Source: a virus. From it: a DNA stretch of 26,309 bases. The translations under genes and the position numbers were made by a program. Where the stretch lies: positions 1-26,309 of the IMG/VR virus record IMGVR_UViG_3300030103_005646. One strand, given 5' to 3'. Positions 1,119-10,967 of the stretch are shown here, in pieces; within the stretch, counting starts at the first letter, position 1, and the number at the start of each line of letters is the position of its first letter. The notes beneath the pieces are model-generated. The model worked only from the letters and a program-made list of their open reading frames with translations, was not told the DNA's origin and did not search any database.

Positions 1119-1817
1119 ATGGCATCAAGTTATTCAAGCGACCTAAAATTAGAATTAATGGTAACCGGAGAAAATGCCGGTACATGGGGTGATAAAACCA
1201 ATACCAATCTTAATTTGGTTCAACAATCTGTTGCTGGATATCAAGCAATTGATGTAGCCTCTTCAGATGTTGCTTTGGCAATGACTGATGGAACAATTTC
1301 AAATGCAAGAAATGCAACTTTAAAATTAACAGGAACCTTAGCTGCCAACAGAACTGTCACTTTACCAAATAGTATTGAAAAAGTTTTTAACGTTATAGAT
1401 GGAACTGATCACGCAGGATACACATTAACTTTTAAAACAGTAAGTGGCACAGGAGTTTTACTTTGTGAAGGAAATTGTTATGTATTGTATTCAGATGGAA
1501 CTAATATTGAAAAAGCAGTTGAGTATAAAAAATGGAGAACAGTATCGGCTGCAGAAACAGTTCAAGCAGGAGCTCAACTTTTTGTAGATACAAGTGGTGG
1601 AGCTGTAACAATAACTTTACCTGCGTCTCCAGCAGTTGGAGATGAAGTGCATTTCATAGATTCAAGATTTACTTTTGACAGTAACGCATTGACTGTAGGA
1701 AGAAACAGTTCTAAAATAGCTAATGCGTCTTCAGATTTAGTAGTTAACACAGAAGGTGCAGGTTTTGGATTAGTGTATTCTGGTTCAAATATTGGCTGGA
1801 CTTATATGGAGAAATAA
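1119..1817 (+). CDS. Tail fibre-like structural protein
   Basis: A 232-residue protein with no catalytic motif. Its N-terminus (residues about 1-40) has a Ser-rich start followed by the TGENAGTWGDKTNTNLN segment. I recognise this as the start of many marine phage fibre/appendage proteins, where it probably forms an attachment or trimerisation module. The remainder is Gly/Thr/Val/Ser-rich beta-type sequence (TLKLTGTLAANRTVTLP; GGAVTITLPASPAVGDEVHF), with a C-terminal segment resembling fibre shaft or tip strands. The ATG follows an AGGAG at normal spacing and lies just downstream of a good sigma70-like promoter. The next gene begins one base after its stop. A receptor-contacting or shaft role is inferred from neighbours. 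Confidence 0.65.
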   Translation: MASSYSSDLKLELMVTGENAGTWGDKTNTNLNLVQQSVAGYQAIDVASSDVALAMTDGTISNARNATLKLTGTLAANRTVTLPNSIEKVFNVIDGTDHAGYTLTFKTVSGTGVLLCEGNCYVLYSDGTNIEKAVEYKKWRTVSAAETVQAGAQLFVDTSGGAVTITLPASPAVGDEVHFIDSRFTFDSNALTVGRNSSKIANASSDLVVNTEGAGFGLVYSGSNIGWTYMEK

Positions 1818-1818
1818 T

Positions 1819-2391
1819 ATGTCAAATTACGAAGCAACAAGATACAATTTTACAGGAGCAGACCTTACAGGTATCGAGGGAATTCCTACAGCTACTATTG
1901 TACCTTGGTCTACTTCATCAGTGCCAACAGGTTTTTTAGAATGTAATGGAGCAGCTGTTTCAAGATCAACTTACTCTGCATTGTTTGCAATAGTAGGTAC
2001 AACTTATGGATCTGGAGATGGTGCATCAACTTTTAACGTGCCAAATTTAGCTGACAATGTAGCAGTAGGAAAATCTAACAATAAAGCTTTGGCTTCTACT
2101 GGAGGAGCAAATACAGTTACTTCAACTGGTAATGTCGCTGGTTCAACAGCGAATGCATCTTTATCTGAAGCTCAACTTGCTAGTCACGCCCATGGTGGTA
2201 GTGCTAAAAATTCACCTCACGCTTTACAAGGGGCTAGTGCTTCAAGTTACTATCTTTTGCAAGCACCGAATAGCACTAACAATACTGGAAGTGGTAGTGG
2301 TCACTCACATAACATGAGTGCAAACTTTGTTGGAGATGCAACATCAGTTTTACAACCTTATCTAGCAGTAACATATATAATTAAAACGTAG
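1819..2391 (+). CDS. Phage tail collar-domain protein
   Basis: A 190-residue protein. Residues about 25-85 match the phage tail collar domain pattern: PWSTSSVPTGFLECNGAAVSR, then Y-x-x-LF-x-IVGTTYG and FNVPNLADNVAVG. The C-terminal half carries two HxH motifs, H123-A-H125 and H162-S-H164, and ends in LQPYLAVTYIIK, typical of collar/short-fibre C-termini. In T4 gp12 and related receptor-binding tips, HxH pairs from a trimer bind metal ions along the needle; the same is inferred here. I chose the ATG at 1819 because a GGAG (1809-1812) sits six bases upstream. An in-frame ATG at 1792 would overlap the previous gene and lacks this site. It is probably the receptor-binding tip. Confidence 0.85.
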   Translation: MSNYEATRYNFTGADLTGIEGIPTATIVPWSTSSVPTGFLECNGAAVSRSTYSALFAIVGTTYGSGDGASTFNVPNLADNVAVGKSNNKALASTGGANTVTSTGNVAGSTANASLSEAQLASHAHGGSAKNSPHALQGASASSYYLLQAPNSTNNTGSGSGHSHNMSANFVGDATSVLQPYLAVTYIIKT

Positions 2392-2399
2392 GAGAAAAA

Positions 2400-2804
2400 A
2401 TGGCAACTAATGCACAATGGACAGTAATATTCGAGGATAAAAGAATTATAAAACAATCTGGAGATGGTGCTGGTGCTTACGTAATTGATAATGATTCTTT
2501 TTGGAATGATTCTAAATGGTCAAACATTTGGGCAATTCAATATCAACCAGATAATCATGATTATAATGATACTGTTGAGCATAGAGATGACACTCCTCAC
2601 GCTACATGGACACAAGCTGATTTAGGAGATTTTCAAAGTCAATTTATTGATAAGTGGGATGCAGCTCATTTAGCTAGATTACAATCAGATTGGGATAATG
2701 ATAACGTCACATCTTTTGATGAATCAGGTAATGAAGTTTCTGCTGAAAGTGAAGCTGAGAAGATAGCTAGATTAGGTGAAAGACCTACTTCTTACTCTTC
2801 GTAG
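2400..2804 (+). CDS. Conserved small virion-region protein, unknown function
   Basis: A 134-residue acidic protein with many Asp, Trp and Asn (for example DNDSFWNDSKWSNIWAIQYQPDNHDYND) and a charged C-terminal part ending in SEAEKIARLGERP. No membrane segment, signal peptide or catalytic motif is visible. It has a strong start: TAG-GAGAAAAAATG places GGAG about six bases before the ATG. It follows the collar gene, so it may be an appendage accessory or chaperone; that is only context. Its last 20 bases overlap the end of the convergent oxygenase gene on the minus strand. I do not recognise a named family. Confidence 0.7.
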   Translation: MATNAQWTVIFEDKRIIKQSGDGAGAYVIDNDSFWNDSKWSNIWAIQYQPDNHDYNDTVEHRDDTPHATWTQADLGDFQSQFIDKWDAAHLARLQSDWDNDNVTSFDESGNEVSAESEAEKIARLGERPTSYSS

Positions 2805-3411
2805 TTTCTAAATATTTCTTTTTTTTATTAAATTCCAAATGGTTTTTATCTACAATATTGAACACTAAATTATATCTATTGAAGTCTTCTTCATGTATAT
2901 CAAATCCATGTACTATTTCTGGAGGAAGTAAATAATAATCTCCAGGTTCTGGCGATATTTTTAAATTTAATTCTGGTAATATTAGATCAGATCCTTTTGT
3001 TAAATATAAAATACCACTCAAACAAGGGTGAGTATGAAAGTCAACACTATCTCCTTTTTTAATTTCATTACCCCATGCATCTTGAAAAGTTTTTCTTTCA
3101 AAAAAATACTCAAATATTTGTGGATGTGTATTTTGATATTTATTTATAAGATAGGTTGTAAAGTCAACAAATTCAGGTTTATTCAAAAAATAATCCCAAC
3201 TAGTCATCGCTCCTTTTACATTAGTGTAGCTATGCATGTTAGTATCTAAATTAGATTTAATTGACATTATTAGATTATGTATAATATTCGGATAAGGATA
3301 ATTACCAAATATTATATTAACATGTCTAGTATAGCTTACATTTATACTATTTCGTTCTTCGCTTAATTTATTATTTTTGTTTATAAGACTGATCACGATA
3401 ACATCAACCAA
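2785..3411 (-). CDS. 2OG-Fe(II) oxygenase-like protein with HxH metal motif
   Basis: 208 residues from a TTG start. The C-terminal half has a double-stranded beta-helix pattern like the phage 2OG-Fe(II) oxygenase group related to PF13759: WGNEIKKGD, then H126-T-H128-P-x-L-SGILYL, PEPGDYYLLPPEIVH168, and R179 in a FNRYNLVFN strand that would bind the 2-oxoglutarate carboxylate. The first metal motif is HxH rather than HxD, as in cupin-like sites. The substrate is unknown. The start is uncertain: no Shine-Dalgarno site is visible, the reading frame overlaps the end of the upstream minus-strand gene by 19 bases, and a GTG at 3396 is an alternative, so translational coupling is likely. The sequence is very AT-rich compared with flanking tail genes. 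Confidence 0.7.
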   Translation of the reverse strand: MVDVIVISLINKNNKLSEERNSINVSYTRHVNIIFGNYPYPNIIHNLIMSIKSNLDTNMHSYTNVKGAMTSWDYFLNKPEFVDFTTYLINKYQNTHPQIFEYFFERKTFQDAWGNEIKKGDSVDFHTHPCLSGILYLTKGSDLILPELNLKISPEPGDYYLLPPEIVHGFDIHEEDFNRYNLVFNIVDKNHLEFNKKKKYLETTKSKK

Positions 3412-3986
3412 GAAGTTAATATGTATTTTTCACCAGATAGTGGTGGATTACCTCTATGAACGTATGGAAAAGAAGCTGGCCATATAACTATCCTACCCTT
3501 TTTGGGTTTTACCCTTTTTGAAAAATGTAAAAACTCTGTTTCTCCACCTTCCTCAACATCATTTAAATAAATTGTGTATACCAAACCTCTATATGCATTA
3601 TCTTTTGTATTTCCATGCTCTAAATGCCAAATGTGATAACCTTGAGTTGGTAGAGTCTTCTGTATTTTAATATCTGTATATTTTAAAGATGGTATATTGT
3701 AAGAAACTAAAATACCTGTTGAATCTTGATAGTGTCTAAGTGCAAGATCGAAATTGACTAACAATGGTTTGAATTCTTCGAACCAAGTATTAACATGTTC
3801 ATTTAAGGTAATAGCCCTATCGTTTTTTAATAGTAATGGTGTGTTTTCAGATTGTAATCTATCATATGCTTTTTTTAAGGCATTTTGTTTTTCAAAATAT
3901 TCTATAGCTTTATCACATTCTTGTGGGAGTATATAATTATCATATATACCAATAAAATTATTTATGCTTACTTTTTTTTCGTTCAT
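3393..3986 (-). CDS. Prolyl-4-hydroxylase-type 2OG-Fe(II) oxygenase
   Basis: 197 residues from the ATG at 3986. A jelly-roll oxygenase core is visible: GYHIWH121-L-E123, GLVYTIYLNDVEEGGETEF (the strand and Gly-Gly-Glu-Thr turn typical of prolyl 4-hydroxylase relatives), KKGRIVIWPASFPYVH177, and GEK187YILTSWL, where Lys at this position binds 2-oxoglutarate in P4H enzymes. The metal triad would be H121, E123 and H177, with Glu replacing the usual Asp. The likely reaction is Fe(II)/2OG-dependent hydroxylation of a protein or small-molecule substrate; the substrate cannot be read from sequence. The ATG lies two bases after the upstream gene's TAA. An in-frame TTG at 4001 is less attractive. No clear ribosome-binding site is seen. 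Confidence 0.78.
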   Translation of the reverse strand: MNEKKVSINNFIGIYDNYILPQECDKAIEYFEKQNALKKAYDRLQSENTPLLLKNDRAITLNEHVNTWFEEFKPLLVNFDLALRHYQDSTGILVSYNIPSLKYTDIKIQKTLPTQGYHIWHLEHGNTKDNAYRGLVYTIYLNDVEEGGETEFLHFSKRVKPKKGRIVIWPASFPYVHRGNPPLSGEKYILTSWLMLS

Positions 3987-3988
3987 TA

Positions 3989-4552
3989 TTATTGAAGCCA
4001 AGCAACTATACTATATCTAGTCCCCTCTGTTATAGGACTTATTTGATGAGGATATAAAAAATTACTAGGAAAAAAAACTATTGATCCTTTTTTTAATTGT
4101 ATTTCTTTTATCTTTTCATTTATATTCATGGGATTCATAAAAATTAAACTACCACCTTTGTATTGATTATTCAAATTTAAAATAACGCTTATACTCCTTG
4201 TAACATCAGTAACGCTATCAATATGCGCTCCATACTTGCCTCCAACACTATATTTAAGTAAATCTATTTGGTTTATTTTTTGATTGTTTACTGTTTTTAG
4301 AAATTTAATTTTATAATATAAATATAAGTCTTCAATTTTTTTTCCTATTTTTTTAAATAATATTTTATCTTTTTTTTGTAACGTATAACCTAAAACATTT
4401 CTTCCTTTTTTATCTACTCCACTTATCATTCCCATATTACTTAAATTTATTTTATCAATATGATTTGATATATCATCACAAAAATCATCACCTATTATTT
4501 GATCTATTTTAACAATTGCCTCTAAATGATCCATAAATTTATTTTCTATCAT
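3989..4552 (-). CDS. Prolyl-4-hydroxylase-type 2OG-Fe(II) oxygenase, first minus-strand gene of the island
   Basis: 187 residues from the ATG at 4552; the frame is open to an ATG at 4600, and another ATG lies at 4534. In numbering from 4600, the core is LLKYSVGGKYGAH126-I-D128, RSISVILNLNNQYKGGSLIF, KKGSIVFFPSNFLYPH185 and TEGTR195YSIVAWL. These give a canonical HxD...H facial triad and the 2OG-binding Arg of the P4H/PiuC-type superfamily. I prefer 4552 or 4534 because a perfect TTGACA on this strand occupies 4595-4600, which would put a transcript start downstream of 4600; this remains uncertain. The next gene starts two bases after the stop, suggesting a three-gene minus-strand operon. Base composition is extremely AT-rich. 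Confidence 0.78.
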   Translation of the reverse strand: MIENKFMDHLEAIVKIDQIIGDDFCDDISNHIDKINLSNMGMISGVDKKGRNVLGYTLQKKDKILFKKIGKKIEDLYLYYKIKFLKTVNNQKINQIDLLKYSVGGKYGAHIDSVTDVTRSISVILNLNNQYKGGSLIFMNPMNINEKIKEIQLKKGSIVFFPSNFLYPHQISPITEGTRYSIVAWLQ

Positions 4553-4569
4553 ATTTATCAGCAAATAAA

Positions 4570-4600
4570 AGAATAATTTTTTACTTGTTTTAAATGTCAA
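4570..4600 (-). promoter_or_regulatory. Possible minus-strand promoter of the oxygenase operon
   Basis: The minus strand carries a perfect TTGACA at 4600-4595. Downstream are weak -10 candidates: AATTAT at a 16-bp spacing (4578-4573) or TATTCT at 19 bp (4575-4570). The site lies between the divergent oxygenase genes and overlaps the first codons of the plus-strand gene. The weak -10 boxes keep this tentative. Confidence 0.28.
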
Positions 4601-5550
4601 AGATGATTAAAAATTGTAATTCTATGCTTCCTACAATACAAATTAAAGATAATTTTTTAAGCAAAGAAGAACTAAAAATTATTCTAAATAATTTAGATAA
4701 AATTAATTTAGAACCTATAAATAATGGAGTTGGAAATTTTGGATTTAGACATTTTTTTGATATTAATTCAGATAATGAATGGTTGTTTGTCAAAATAAAA
4801 AAACAATTTTTTCCAAATGTTAATTTAGTTCCTGATCATGCTTCTTTTCATTTGAGGCACAATTGTAAAAAAGTAATGTCTCATGATGATGCACAAGATT
4901 TTAATTTTTTACTGTATTTAAAAGGTGATGAGATTGTCTATAACGGAACTGGATTTTATTATAAAAATAAATTAAACACATATTTAGGTTTTGTTAATAA
5001 CAGAGCATTATTTTTTGATGGTAAAAACAATGTGCATACTGATTTGCAAGCACTAGGAGATAGCTCACCAAGATATACAATAAACATATTTTTTAACACA
5101 ATTATTCATTCCAATTTTAGAATAGGATGGGTTGATAGTAACGAAGTTCAACATAGAATGTATCCTTGTTTACATAGTCCCTATACTTTTGACGATCTTA
5201 AAAATGTAAAAATATTGGACGTGGTTTTAGATAAATTGAAAGATAAAAATATAACAATAAATAACTATGATAAATGTGTAATTAATCTTACCAAAAATAT
5301 GGACGTTAATTTTATACACAACCATCCTAATCAAATTGTGTTTTTACATTATTCTAATCTAACCTGGAATCCTGAGTGGGGTGGTGAAACTGTTTTTTAT
5401 AAACATGATGGTAAGGATATTTTAGAGTCTAGTCCTTATACACCTAATAGGGCCATCATATTTGATGGAGAGATAAAACATACTATAAAAGCTCAAAATA
5501 TTTTAGGACCAAGTTATAGATTTACTACTAGTTTGTTTTTTAACAAATAG
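4594..5550 (+). CDS. Tandem two-domain 2OG-Fe(II) oxygenase-like protein
   Basis: 318 residues containing two successive beta-helix halves. Domain 1 (about 1-168): H97-D-D99 (HxD), NNRALFFDGKNNVH148 and SPR160YTINIFFN. Domain 2 (about 225-318): NFIH242-N-H244-PNQIVFLHYSNLTW, EWGGETVFY, PNRAIIFDGEIKH296 and YR309FTTSLFFNK. The two end strands, FFDG-x(4)-VH...RYTINIFFN and IFDG-x(2)-KH...YRFTTSLFFN, look like diverged copies. Domain 2 resembles a marine phage/bacterial oxygenase family with an HTHPNQ-type motif, so it may use a three-His site. The gene is divergent from the minus-strand oxygenase operon. No ribosome-binding site is obvious; ATGs at 4603 and 4624 are alternative starts. Substrate unknown. 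Confidence 0.72.
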   Translation: MSKMIKNCNSMLPTIQIKDNFLSKEELKIILNNLDKINLEPINNGVGNFGFRHFFDINSDNEWLFVKIKKQFFPNVNLVPDHASFHLRHNCKKVMSHDDAQDFNFLLYLKGDEIVYNGTGFYYKNKLNTYLGFVNNRALFFDGKNNVHTDLQALGDSSPRYTINIFFNTIIHSNFRIGWVDSNEVQHRMYPCLHSPYTFDDLKNVKILDVVLDKLKDKNITINNYDKCVINLTKNMDVNFIHNHPNQIVFLHYSNLTWNPEWGGETVFYKHDGKDILESSPYTPNRAIIFDGEIKHTIKAQNILGPSYRFTTSLFFNK

Positions 5551-5630
5551 ACGAATATCTATTATTTATGATATAAATATCGCTGAATGCTTATGGTTTA
5601 GAACTTAAAAAAATTAGTGTATAATGCAGT
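5551..5630. other. Intergenic gap with AT-only inverted repeat
   Basis: This 80-base gap separates the oxygenase island from the next virion gene. It has a 7-bp inverted repeat, TATTTAT (5563-5569) and ATAAATA (5573-5579), with a GAT loop. No T-tract follows, so it is not a convincing intrinsic terminator. Downstream lies the promoter described at 5597-5625. Confidence 0.4.
5597..5625 (+). promoter_or_regulatory. sigma70-like promoter giving a near-leaderless transcript
   Basis: TTTAGA (5597-5602; 4 of 6 consensus bases) and a perfect TATAAT (5620-5625) are spaced by 17 bp. A start about seven bases below the -10 box would fall at roughly 5632, essentially on the ATG at 5631. No Shine-Dalgarno sequence precedes that ATG, which is consistent with leaderless translation. 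Confidence 0.48.
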
Positions 5631-7790
5631 ATGCCATTAACAAAAGTACAAATAGCCCCCGGATTTAATAAACAAGTTACTCAGACTGGAGCAGAAGGTA
5701 AATGGACTGATGGTGATTTTGTTAGATTTAGGTATGGCTTACCTGAAAAGATAGGTGGATGGGAACAGATTCTAGCAGATACTTTAGTTGGTGCCGCAAG
5801 AGAACAATTTATTTGGGCTGATTTAGATGGAAGACGTTATGCTGCAATAGGAACAAATAAAGTATTAGTAGTATATTATGAAGGTGCTTTTTATGACATT
5901 ACTCCTTTAGATACTGCTTTAACAGGATGTACGTTTGATACTGTAAATACATCAGCAACAGTAACCGTAAACAAAGCAGCTCATGGACTTGAGCCTGGAG
6001 ATATTTTTTTATTTAGTTCTGTAACACCACCATCAGGAGCAGGTTATTCTGCAGGAGACTTTACAACAAATCCTTTTCAAGTAATTACTGTTCCAGGTAG
6101 TGATGAATTTACTGTAACCATGGCTAGCGCAGCAGGGACAACGGTCAACGGATCTGGATCAGCTACAATTACACCCTACGTAAAACCTGGAGCTTTAGGA
6201 TTTACATATGGTTTTGGTTGGGGCACAGGATTATGGGGAGGTGGTCAACAAGTAATAGGCACTTTAAATGGAGCATTATTAGATGACACTGCAGGAACTG
6301 GTGGATCAGGTACATCAATTACACTAACCTCTACAACAGGATTTCCAACATCCGGAACTATAAAAGTTGGTGCAGAATTTATTTCTTACACAGGTATTTC
6401 AACAAATGATCTTACAGGAATAACAAGAGCTGCTGCAGGAACCAGGTCCGCACATGCAGATGGAGCTGGTGTTGAATATTTTACAGCTTGGGGTGAAGCT
6501 TCCTTAGCACAAACTTTAACAACTGATCCTGCTTCTTGGTCATTAGATAATTTTGGAGAGAAACTTATTGCTACAGTAAAAAATGGAAAATCTTTCGAAT
6601 GGAATCCTATAAATTCTAACGCTAGTGCTTTAACCACAAGAGCAGCTGTAATTTCTAATGCACCAACTGCCTCTGTAATGTCCTTAGTTTCAGATAGAGA
6701 TAGACACCTAATAATGTTAGGCACTGAAACAACAATCGGATCACCATCAACACAAGATAAATTATTTATTAGATTTTCAGATCAAGAAAATATAAGTGAC
6801 TACACACCTACTTCTGTGAATACTGCTGGAACTTTTAGGTTAGACTCCGGAACTAAAATTGTTGGAGCAGTAAAAGGTAAAGATTACACATTAATTTTGA
6901 CTGATAATGCTGCATATGTAATGCAGTTTGTAGGTCCTCCGTTTACTTTTTCTATAAGACAAGTAGGATCTAACTGTGGTTGTATAGGTCAACATGCTAT
7001 GAAATATGTCAATGGAGCTATTTATTGGATGGGAGAATCTGGTGGCTTTTTTGTTTTTGATGGTACTGTTAAATCATTACCATGTGCTGTTGAAGATTTT
7101 GTTTTTACAACAAAGAATGGTGAAAACCTTGGAGTCAACTATCAAAATGGTGAAATAGTTTATGCAGGGTTAAATCATTTGTACGAAGAAATTTGTTGGT
7201 ACTATCCTAAATCAGGATCATCATTTAACGATCGTTATGTTTGTTATAATTATCAAGATAATACTTGGGTAACAGGATCATTATCTAGAACTACGTGGGT
7301 AGACGCTAATTTATATGATGTTCCATATGCAACTGAGTTTAGTTCTACTGGATTACCATCGTTTCCTGTAATTCAAGGTGTAACAAACACAAATGGTTCG
7401 ACTACTTATTTTGCACATGAAACTGGAGTAGATGAGGTAGATGCTACAGGTAATAAAACTGCTATACCTGCTTTTATAGAGTCAGGAGATTTTAGTTTAA
7501 ATCCTGATGGGACAAATGCTGAGTTTTTTATGAGTATGAGAAGATTTGTACCTGATTTTAAAACTATACAAGGTAATGCTCAGGTAACAATTTTGCTTAG
7601 AGATTTTCCCGCAGATACAGAAGCATCGTCTCCATTAGGACCATTCACGGTCACCGGATCAACACAAAAGGTAGATACTAGAGCAAGAGCTAGGTTTGCT
7701 AGTTTAAAAATTGCTAACACTGGAACAGAACAGAACTGGCGTTTTGGAACTTTTAGAGCAGATGTTCAACTTGATGGAATGAGAGGATAA
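5631..7790 (+). CDS. Large tail/stabilisation-like structural protein
   Basis: 719 residues with no catalytic motif. The N-terminus (MPLTKVQIAPGFNKQVT, then EGKWTDGDFVRFRYGLPEKIGGW) is a start I recognise from a widespread marine phage virion protein. Residues about 60-330 are Gly/Thr/Ser-rich beta sequence with a Trp-Gly patch (GFGWGTGLWGGG, about 190-205) and FPTSGTIKVGAEFISYTG-type strands. The C-terminal half (RDRHLIMLGTE, DNAAYVMQFVGPPFTFSIRQVGS, IYWMGESGGFFVFDG) resembles the repeated strands of P22 gp10-like tail stabilisation/hub proteins; that match is by pattern only. The start is supported by the TATAAT box just upstream, not by a ribosome-binding site. The next gene starts inside its stop codon (TAATG). 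It is probably a tail hub or adaptor component. Confidence 0.65.
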   Translation: MPLTKVQIAPGFNKQVTQTGAEGKWTDGDFVRFRYGLPEKIGGWEQILADTLVGAAREQFIWADLDGRRYAAIGTNKVLVVYYEGAFYDITPLDTALTGCTFDTVNTSATVTVNKAAHGLEPGDIFLFSSVTPPSGAGYSAGDFTTNPFQVITVPGSDEFTVTMASAAGTTVNGSGSATITPYVKPGALGFTYGFGWGTGLWGGGQQVIGTLNGALLDDTAGTGGSGTSITLTSTTGFPTSGTIKVGAEFISYTGISTNDLTGITRAAAGTRSAHADGAGVEYFTAWGEASLAQTLTTDPASWSLDNFGEKLIATVKNGKSFEWNPINSNASALTTRAAVISNAPTASVMSLVSDRDRHLIMLGTETTIGSPSTQDKLFIRFSDQENISDYTPTSVNTAGTFRLDSGTKIVGAVKGKDYTLILTDNAAYVMQFVGPPFTFSIRQVGSNCGCIGQHAMKYVNGAIYWMGESGGFFVFDGTVKSLPCAVEDFVFTTKNGENLGVNYQNGEIVYAGLNHLYEEICWYYPKSGSSFNDRYVCYNYQDNTWVTGSLSRTTWVDANLYDVPYATEFSSTGLPSFPVIQGVTNTNGSTTYFAHETGVDEVDATGNKTAIPAFIESGDFSLNPDGTNAEFFMSMRRFVPDFKTIQGNAQVTILLRDFPADTEASSPLGPFTVTGSTQKVDTRARARFASLKIANTGTEQNWRFGTFRADVQLDGMRG

Positions 7791-8979: not shown

Positions 8980-9176
8980 GTGATTTACCAAAAATATCTG
9001 CAGAGGCAACTGAAATCATTAAACATAAAAGAACAGGAAAAGTGTATGATAGCAAAGCTCATTTTGATTCTGATGTTGCTGATCCCAACACTGATACTAC
9101 TCAAGATGATTTTAGACAAGACCTCGAAATAAAAGTTACAAGAGCAGGAAATATTGGTGCTAAAACCAAAAAATAA
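8976..9176 (+). CDS. Small conserved hypothetical protein
   Basis: 66 residues, starting MSDLPKISAEATEIIKHKRTGKVY, then an Asp/Thr-rich stretch (FDSDVADPNTDTTQDDF) and a basic tail. The N-terminal helix-strand with a KRTGKVY turn is typical of a short protein I associate with pelagiphage-like virion modules. It is coupled to both neighbours (ATGA upstream, TAATG downstream into the glycosyltransferase gene). No membrane segment or motif identifies its function. Confidence 0.68.
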   Translation: MSDLPKISAEATEIIKHKRTGKVYDSKAHFDSDVADPNTDTTQDDFRQDLEIKVTRAGNIGAKTKK

Positions 9177-10105
9177 TGAAACCTAGAGGCGCAACTGAAC
9201 TTCAACACGAGTTGCTTGAAAAATACGTATCAAAAGATTTACTAGATAAATTTCAAATATGTACATCTATTCCAGGAAAAGTGCCACTGGATCCCAATAA
9301 AATAAATATTCTTTGGCAAAAGAACTCTTGGGATCAACCAAATCTACAAAGCTTTTTTAGAAATAAAGACAGACACCATGAGTATGATTGGTATGTTTTC
9401 AATTCACATTGGTGTTATGAAAAATTTAGATATTTTTTTCAAATACCTGAAGATAAATCTATTGTAATTAAAAATGGTGCACATCATTTTCCAAAAAGAA
9501 AAATTTACAAGAAAGGTGATCATATAAGAATTATGCATCATTGTACTCCTTGGAGAGGCTTGAACGTATTATTATTAGCAATGCAACTAGTACAAAATAA
9601 AAATATAACTTTAGATGTGTATAGTTCAAATGATGTTTATGGAAAAGAGTTTGCTGACAGAGCAAATAAAGACACTGAAGCTTTGTTTGATCAAGCAAAG
9701 AAATTGCCAAACGTAAATTATATAGGATACAAACCTAATGAATATTTATTAGAACACATTACAGATTATGACTTATTTGTATATCCTTCAATATTCGAAG
9801 AAACTTTTTGTGCTTCAGCTTTGGAAGCTCTATCAGCTGGGCTTCATGTTATTACAACTAACTTTGGTGCATTACCTGAAACCTGCGCAGAATGGCCAGT
9901 ATATGTAAATTATTCAAAGGATCTTGAATTACTAGCAGCAAGTATTGCAGGAGCTATTGATATTTCTGCAGAATATTTACATACAGATACAATGCAAAAT
10001 CATTTAGACGAACAACAAAAATACTATAAAAAATTTTATAGTTGGGATAAGAAAGCTATGGAATGGGAAAACTTTTTGAAAGGAGCTTTACGTGTCAAAC
10101 AATAA
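9176..10105 (+). CDS. GT-B glycosyltransferase, GT4-like
   Basis: 309 residues. The C-terminal Rossmann half has the family-4 signature: IRIMHHCTPWRGLNVLLLAM, then LFVYPSIFE-E209-TFCASAL-E217-ALSAG, i.e. the EX7E motif that binds the nucleotide-sugar donor, followed by HVITTNFGALPE. The N-terminal half is shortened but keeps GATELQHELLEKYV in place of the usual Gly-rich acceptor-side loop. It would transfer a sugar from an activated donor to an unknown acceptor in the cytoplasm. The ATG overlaps the preceding stop (TAATG). The next glycosyltransferase starts 14 bases before its end, so the two are co-translated and may act in sequence. Total length is slightly below typical GT4 enzymes (350-400 residues). 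Confidence 0.82.
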   Translation: MKPRGATELQHELLEKYVSKDLLDKFQICTSIPGKVPLDPNKINILWQKNSWDQPNLQSFFRNKDRHHEYDWYVFNSHWCYEKFRYFFQIPEDKSIVIKNGAHHFPKRKIYKKGDHIRIMHHCTPWRGLNVLLLAMQLVQNKNITLDVYSSNDVYGKEFADRANKDTEALFDQAKKLPNVNYIGYKPNEYLLEHITDYDLFVYPSIFEETFCASALEALSAGLHVITTNFGALPETCAEWPVYVNYSKDLELLAASIAGAIDISAEYLHTDTMQNHLDEQQKYYKKFYSWDKKAMEWENFLKGALRVKQ

Positions 10106-10967
10106 ATATATTAATGAAGATACTTATCAAACATTACAAGAGGTAAATATAGAAACTCAATCAGATTATGAAAAAGCTGTAGAACCTTTATGGAAAGAAA
10201 ACAAAGATCAATATAAAGATATTGAAGTCTTTGTTGCAACACCAGTACACAGTGAGGTTTCTATACATTACACGCAAGCCTTAATAGAGTTTCAACAAGA
10301 GTGTTTTAAGAAAAAACTAAAAGTATCTTTTCATCTAATTAAATCATCCTTAGTAACACAGGGAAGAAACTTATCAGTAGCAGGATTTTTGGAATCAAAA
10401 GCAACACATTTACTATTTATTGACTCAGATATATATTTTCAAGGTAAATCTATATTTGCTATGCTTAAAGCAGATAAGCATATTATATCTGTTCCTTATC
10501 CATTAAAAACTTTGATGTGGGATAAAGCTTTTAATAAAATGAAAGAAGGTAGAATAAAATCACCAGATGATATTAGAAAAGCACTACATACATATCCTAT
10601 GAAAGTGCCTGATGTTAACAACATTAAATTAGATAAGGGAGTAATGGAAGTAACTGACTCGCCAACAGGATGTATGTTGATAAAAAGAGAAGTTATAGAA
10701 AAAATGATAGAAAAATACCCTGACAAAGAGATAGTTCAAAAAACAGTTATTAATGGTAAATATGTAAATAAACCAAATATGTGGAACTTTTTTGATACTT
10801 TACATGACCCTAAGGAGAAGACTTATAATGGTGAAGATTTTGCCTTTTGTAAGTTATGGAGAGATCTAGGTGGCAAATGTTACGCATATGTAAATGATGC
10901 TATAGTCCACATTGGAGAACATCAATACCAAGGTAAGTTTTACGATGAGTTGATATCAACCAAGTAA
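10092..10967 (+). CDS. GT-A type glycosyltransferase with DxD motif
   Basis: 291 residues from a GTG start with AGGAG about seven bases upstream. After a charged N-terminal helix, the core begins at about residue 46 with EVFVATPVHSEVSIHYTQAL. It continues with SSLVTQGRNLSVAGFL and HLLFIDSD (D111-S-D113, the metal/nucleotide-sugar motif), then PTGCMLIKREVIEKM and GED249FAFCKLWRDLGGKCY, a late acidic motif at the place of the catalytic base in GT-A enzymes. Proteins of this arrangement are common in marine phages. Acceptor and sugar are unknown. It is paired with the GT4-like enzyme upstream, with overlapping reading frames. Candidate targets are virion proteins, host envelope glycans or modified DNA bases. 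Confidence 0.82.
   Translation: MSNNKYINEDTYQTLQEVNIETQSDYEKAVEPLWKENKDQYKDIEVFVATPVHSEVSIHYTQALIEFQQECFKKKLKVSFHLIKSSLVTQGRNLSVAGFLESKATHLLFIDSDIYFQGKSIFAMLKADKHIISVPYPLKTLMWDKAFNKMKEGRIKSPDDIRKALHTYPMKVPDVNNIKLDKGVMEVTDSPTGCMLIKREVIEKMIEKYPDKEIVQKTVINGKYVNKPNMWNFFDTLHDPKEKTYNGEDFAFCKLWRDLGGKCYAYVNDAIVHIGEHQYQGKFYDELISTK

Follow-up and report, generated by a model that had tools for sequence, protein, structure and literature searches.

Paired tail-collar and prolyl-hydroxylase-like genes in a variable oxygenase locus of HTVC023P-type pelagiphages

HTVC023P-type phages, which infect the abundant marine bacterium SAR11, are the setting of the locus described here, an island of four adjacent 2-oxoglutarate (2OG)-Fe(II) oxygenase-like genes at positions 2785-5550 of a 26,309-base virus record (IMGVR_UViG_3300030103_005646; this whole record is the window referred to below). 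Oxygenases of this kind are numerous in marine phages and have been read as metabolic helpers, but no tested function was found for them in the literature searched. Wittmers et al. (2022; PMC9599517) described clustered, non-orthologous 2OG-Fe(II) oxygenases in HTVC023P-type phages; their main text reads them as auxiliary metabolic genes, nearby yet not adjacent, with no mention of tail fibres. The auxiliary metabolic gene reading has also been published elsewhere (PMC11561400; PMC9602691), and infection by the cultured phage HTVC027P increases host iron uptake (PMC12753301). In passages of a 2014 study on metaviromic islands of marine phages, Fe(II)-dependent oxygenases appear among the genes of variable islands labelled as host recognition (PMC3909814).

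The window is kin to the Pelagibacter phages HTVC023P and HTVC027P, with which it has structural genes and gene order in common, and by this gene content it is identified as a fragment of an HTVC023P-type pelagiphage. Relatives were gathered through the flanking structural gene, gene D, gene 4, gene 2 and the collar gene. The features on which the argument turns are these:

1819..2391, plus strand: tail-collar protein C, with a Phage Tail Collar domain (PF07484, 2e-21); invariable partner of gene 2 (open reading frame (ORF) from 1792, likely start ATG 1819)
2400..2804, plus strand: gene D, 134 amino acids (aa), possible tail assembly factor
2785..3396, minus strand: oxygenase 1, 2OG-FeII_Oxy_5-like, HxH..H..R
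3393..3986, minus strand: oxygenase 2, the core gene, prolyl-4-hydroxylase-like, HxE..H..K
3989..4552, minus strand: oxygenase 3, canonical HxD..H..R, 2OG-FeII_Oxy_3
4594..5550, plus strand: oxygenase 4, two domains, 4N with HxD..H..R and 4C with HxH..H..R; a fusion relative to the contig L168

Collar gene C is always paired with the prolyl-hydroxylase-like gene 2, which is nearly always reversed. All 64 complete loci of the collar-gene sample, some of whose contigs also belong to the D-type sample described below, contain gene 2, invariably on the other strand from the collar gene, and eight of them do so without gene D. Among the 80 loci gathered through gene 2, 74 have D and the remaining six have gene 2 close to a contig end; in cell assemblies, gene 2 stands beside a collar gene in seven of seven close matches, one of them a Pelagibacteraceae single-cell contig. 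By contrast, only 2 of 48 loci of the long-fibre tail type have it. The place of gene 2 inside the island varies while the association is kept, and so the pairing with the collar is more than adjacency. Gene 2 is thus the core enzyme of collar-type loci.

The remaining content of the island is far less constant. The D-type sample comprises 74 loci with a complete interval between gene D and the conserved structural gene (5631..7790 in the window), and every one of these intervals, 0.6 to 4.6 kb in size, holds one to six oxygenases (a tally from which the 'ferrochelatase' family ds2 was left out), with no empty site among the 74; 252 of their 295 island genes are reversed. At 40% identity or above, gene 2 occurs in 74 of these loci, gene 1 in 40, gene 3 in 34, and domains 4N and 4C in 8 and 2. 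Grouping the 474 oxygenases from all loci at 50% identity gives 146 clusters, and the mean Jaccard distance among islands is 0.71-0.89. Long-fibre relatives have different oxygenases at this site, their own set in forward orientation, and 44 of the 48 have another gene, weakly DUF6065-like. The accessory oxygenases have probably been gained, lost and shuffled through recombination. The 74 relatives, which carry different oxygenase sets in the same interval, bear out the expectation, from a sequence-only reading of the window, that the site is a hotspot of variation at a conserved junction.

That reading had also treated 2785-5550 as the unit that moved, whereas the unit is larger and takes in the tail-collar genes. 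In a tree of the flanking structural protein, the next supported group to the window consists mostly of phages with long glycine-rich fibres (20 of 23 rows), and comparison of DNA along the window reveals a mosaic. To the right of about 5600 most segments are 80-93% identical to long-fibre phages, and to the left of about 1250 the likeness is again to long-fibre phages, at 62-80%; inside about 1251-5600, distant collar-type phages reach 80-90% and long-fibre phages are hardly alike. The alignments thereby mark out about 1251-5600, that is the 3' part of B, C, D and the oxygenases, as the unit exchanged in this lineage. The features that frame it are as follows:

85-1080: tail gene, 3' part; the window begins inside it, and it is complete in L168 as a 454-aa gene
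1119..1817, plus strand: tail gene B, N-terminal part conserved and 3' part exchanged, with the left cassette breakpoint inside (about 1251-1500)
1251..5600, no strand: exchanged cassette, approximate breakpoints, with the 3' part of B, C, D and all oxygenases
5631..7790, plus strand: virion structural (stabilization-like) protein, the conserved right-hand flank

The tail gene at 85-1080 contains repeats such as VTGQSMTSTQG. On the flanking-gene tree the tail type switches three times, and gene 2 switches along with it in three of three independent pairs.

The ORFs of the island were confirmed (2785-3411, 3393-4001 and 3989-4600 on the minus strand; 4594-5550 on the plus strand), with likely true starts at GTG 3396, ATG 3986, ATG 4552 and ATG 4594 for genes 1 to 4; the GTG start of gene 1 overlaps the stop of oxygenase 2, and its 3' end overlaps gene D by 20 nt. 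Genes 2, 3 and 4 pass the Pfam cut-off for 2OG-FeII_Oxy_3 (46, 62 and 33 bits), while gene 1 falls under that for 2OG-FeII_Oxy_5 (E 2e-4) but matches phrog_81 at 9e-9. A sequence search of the PDB with gene 1 gave no useful match; its AlphaFold model (predicted local distance difference test score, pLDDT, 84.8) matches 2OG oxygenases, with the viral collagen prolyl 4-hydroxylase of PBCV-1 (vCPH) at the top of the list (Z 15.4). Iterated profiles seeded by each of the five domains recruit several hundred ORFs of the related loci, in sets that overlap, and the five therefore form one superfamily. Metal ligands are intact in gene 3 and 4N (HxD..H..R) and in gene 2 (HxE..H..K); in gene 1 and 4C, HxH..H..R is conserved in place of HxD..H..R, a putative three-histidine site. 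The ratio of nonsynonymous to synonymous substitution (dN/dS) is about 0.2 in the oxygenase families, which points to purifying selection. The five oxygenase domains initially noticed in the letters alone are accordingly upheld by profiles, iterated profiles and the folds of genes 1 and 2.

The predicted fold of gene 2 comes closest to that of prolyl hydroxylases. Its AlphaFold model (pLDDT 79.5) is best matched by PBCV-1 vCPH (Z 15.8, 157 residues, 3.1 A), followed by EGLN1 (Z 14.8) and the Bacillus anthracis prolyl 4-hydroxylase (P4H; Z 14.3), and the 50 matches listed are nearly all enzymes that hydroxylate prolines in proteins, bacterial P4H-EF-Tu structures among them. Its HxE..H..K motif is fully conserved in 72 sequences, where the P4H site is HxD...H...K.

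The reading that we tentatively prefer, and consider quite possible, is that the locus forms the variable portion of an exchangeable tail-tip cassette in which gene 2 is predicted to hydroxylate a tail protein. With Fe(II), O2 and 2-oxoglutarate the enzyme would hydroxylate an amino-acid side chain, that of proline being the likeliest, during tail assembly; collar protein C is the first candidate substrate, and its folding, stability or receptor binding might be affected. Other residues or partners are the probable targets of the accessory oxygenases. Several observations tell against such a scheme. Allelic variation in gene 2 is uncorrelated with that in the collar gene (partial rho 0.03, p 0.38), and accessory oxygenase content does not track the collar; the independent-pairs test, with only three exchanges, cannot reach significance (p 0.25); physical linkage alone could account for part of the association; HxE in place of HxD may alter the chemistry of gene 2; and its distant homologues in T4-like cyanophages (T4-GC 240) are located chiefly between gp23 and gp3 or close to other genes rather than next to tail fibres. 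No signal of co-divergence was seen for gene 2 with tail gene B or the flank, nor for accessory content with the collar, tail gene B or the flank, the lone exception among the accessory-content tests being one weak correlation of accessory genes with gene D at one threshold. The lack of allele matching between gene 2 and the collar suggests a target in some constant portion of the tail, such as conserved collar prolines, and not in the variable tip. A shared job, as first proposed, is plausible for gene 2, but the accessory genes do not follow the collar. A more ambitious version, in which a dedicated, obligatory tail-protein hydroxylase is co-exchanged with the tail-collar receptor-binding module while shuffling oxygenases diversify tail chemistry, adding a post-translational layer to host recognition, strikes us as doubtful.

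Gene D merits a comment here. Its C-terminal RPTSYS (2783-2804 in the window) is at least 94% conserved, far above the rest of the protein, and the RPTSYS codons are often overlapped by varying reversed genes. This conservation made the D protein a candidate for a necessary substrate, a proposal weakened by the 8 of 64 collar loci that lack D and retain gene 2.

The main rival holds that the oxygenases are host-directed auxiliary enzymes, acting on host proteins (EF-Tu, for instance) or metabolites, or draining 2-oxoglutarate, and that the tail locus is merely the place where late accessory genes recombine. A Pseudomonas prolyl hydroxylase does act on EF-Tu. The published auxiliary interpretation cited at the outset, the P4H-EF-Tu structures among the fold matches, the increased iron uptake of hosts infected by HTVC027P and the free shuffling of the accessory genes all fit this explanation, yet taken alone it leaves unexplained why gene 2 is in every collar-type locus and so rarely in long-fibre ones, and we regard it as somewhat unlikely. 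Improbable, though worth setting out, is a chemistry of receptors or surface glycans, in which sugars or lipids at the host surface are altered by the oxygenases, for instance as a barrier to reinfection, or in which virion residues are made ready for glycosylation by the enzymes of the nearby glycosyltransferase genes (9176-10967), and we give these two variants that low standing jointly. The presence downstream, in the tail block, of a group-1 glycosyltransferase gene and a weak Anp1-like (possibly glycosyltransferase) gene speaks for it, as does a weak sulfotransferase-like gene within the island of one relative; against it, no match to a glycan-specific oxygenase family was obtained, and the glycosyltransferase pair, being common to both tail types, is not tied to the island. 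A passive recombination hotspot, in which small oxygenase genes build up selfishly or neutrally with no common role, would suit the many clusters and large Jaccard distances, but sits badly with the complete lack of empty sites, the purifying selection and the one invariant gene, and is less probable again. Nucleic-acid modification or repair of the AlkB or TET-like kind, which PHROG names such as 'DNA endonuclease V' on some members might suggest, is very improbable given that gene 2's fold matches are nearly all prolyl hydroxylases, that AlkB-type structures come only lower down the list for gene 1, and that the PHROG labels look misannotated, the members of phrog_274 being oxygenase-like.

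The PHROG names deserve attention in their own right. The family phrog_274 gathers oxygenase-like proteins of these islands (e.g., L033:5859-6365), and its 'DNA endonuclease V' label looks wrong. The pelagiphage 'ferrochelatase' (phrog_2954, our ds2), a protein of about 170-220 aa with an invariant HxDR and a later H, exemplified by L085:5295-5915 (HTVC023P gp67), L033:4583-5128 and L032:7889-8401, gave no match to Ferrochelatase (PF00762) in nine records; it has been published as a partner of 2OG oxygenases, and may be another misnamed oxygenase, although the profile comparison was weak and did not establish oxygenase identity.

Low GC had suggested at first sight that the island was acquired cargo. 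The composition itself was read correctly, with line counts right to within two: GC is 0.258 across 2785-5550 against 0.344 in the rest of the window, where the lowest stretch of the same length is at or above 0.313. The cargo argument does not follow, since an AT-rich island is present in all 74 relatives of the same tail type, its GC lying below that of the tail genes in every locus (mean 0.274 vs 0.365). GC at third codon positions is 0.13-0.19 in the window's oxygenases and 0.15-0.17 in its tail genes (0.152 vs 0.142-0.175 over all loci), fourfold-site GC equals that of the flanks, and the difference is confined to first and second codon positions, where it arises because the oxygenases are rich in Phe, Tyr, Met, Ile, Asn and Lys. 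AT-richness is therefore a property of the proteins and no sign of foreign origin, which the codon-position analysis rules out as a deduction from GC; nor do the occupied sites of all 74 relatives point to a recent arrival.

Ribosome-binding sites had likewise been described as lacking, and indeed none of the four island genes has a four-base Shine-Dalgarno match, against 13 of 23 others, but the difference is not significant (Fisher p 0.10). Genes 3, 2 and 1 are spaced by a few nucleotides or overlap (GTGA), and translational coupling of such packed genes would explain the scarcity of matches. The three reversed genes may form a single operon with translational coupling, expressed from the AT-rich gap between divergent genes near 4552-4594; in the island, a scan for promoters returned promoter-like sites no more frequent than in shuffled sequence, and a scan for terminators found none.

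The count of four genes with five domains, three of them reversed, stands for the window except in respect of gene 4, whose form looks local. Over 5.1 kb, contig L168 matches the window at 99.8% identity, but midway through gene 4 it carries 64 extra bases, and a pair of overlapping genes (176 and 171 aa) stands there in place of the window's single gene of 318 aa. The junction is at this feature:

5090..5096, plus strand: T-run that lacks the 64 bases found in L168 and joins 4N to 4C

The relatives L188 and L191 have separate genes at this site as well, and the two-domain gene would therefore be either a local fusion or an assembly error.

In the literature searched we found no mention of the collar-hydroxylase rule, the boundaries of the cassette or the argument from composition. 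The metaviromic islands belong partly to other phage groups (HTVC010P-like), and the passages that concern them give neither a pairing rule nor a mechanism (PMC3909814). The nearest fold to gene 2, the PBCV-1 viral collagen prolyl 4-hydroxylase (5c5t, 5c5u), is also a virus-encoded prolyl hydroxylase, with a similar H..H..K ligand pattern in the prolyl hydroxylase alignment, but it shares only about 20% identity, has HxD for the HxE of gene 2, and comes from an algal virus and not a phage. Closer in sequence, at about 40% identity, the T4-like cyanophage 2OG-Fe(II) oxygenase T4-GC 240 lies within blocks of head or tail genes in three of four cases examined, but on the same strand and without a collar partner. 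Nearest of all in setting are gp72-gp74 of HTVC027P, from the same phage group and the same locus as the window: gp73 shares 58% identity with gene 2 and gp74 66% with gene 1, both being likewise reversed and likewise after the collar gene, while the window's five-domain set and the collar rule are not described in the main text of PMC9599517. The invariable pairing of enzyme and tail protein, found in this cultured phage too, points to a definite candidate substrate, and raises the possibility that certain of these oxygenases serve the virion instead of host metabolism.

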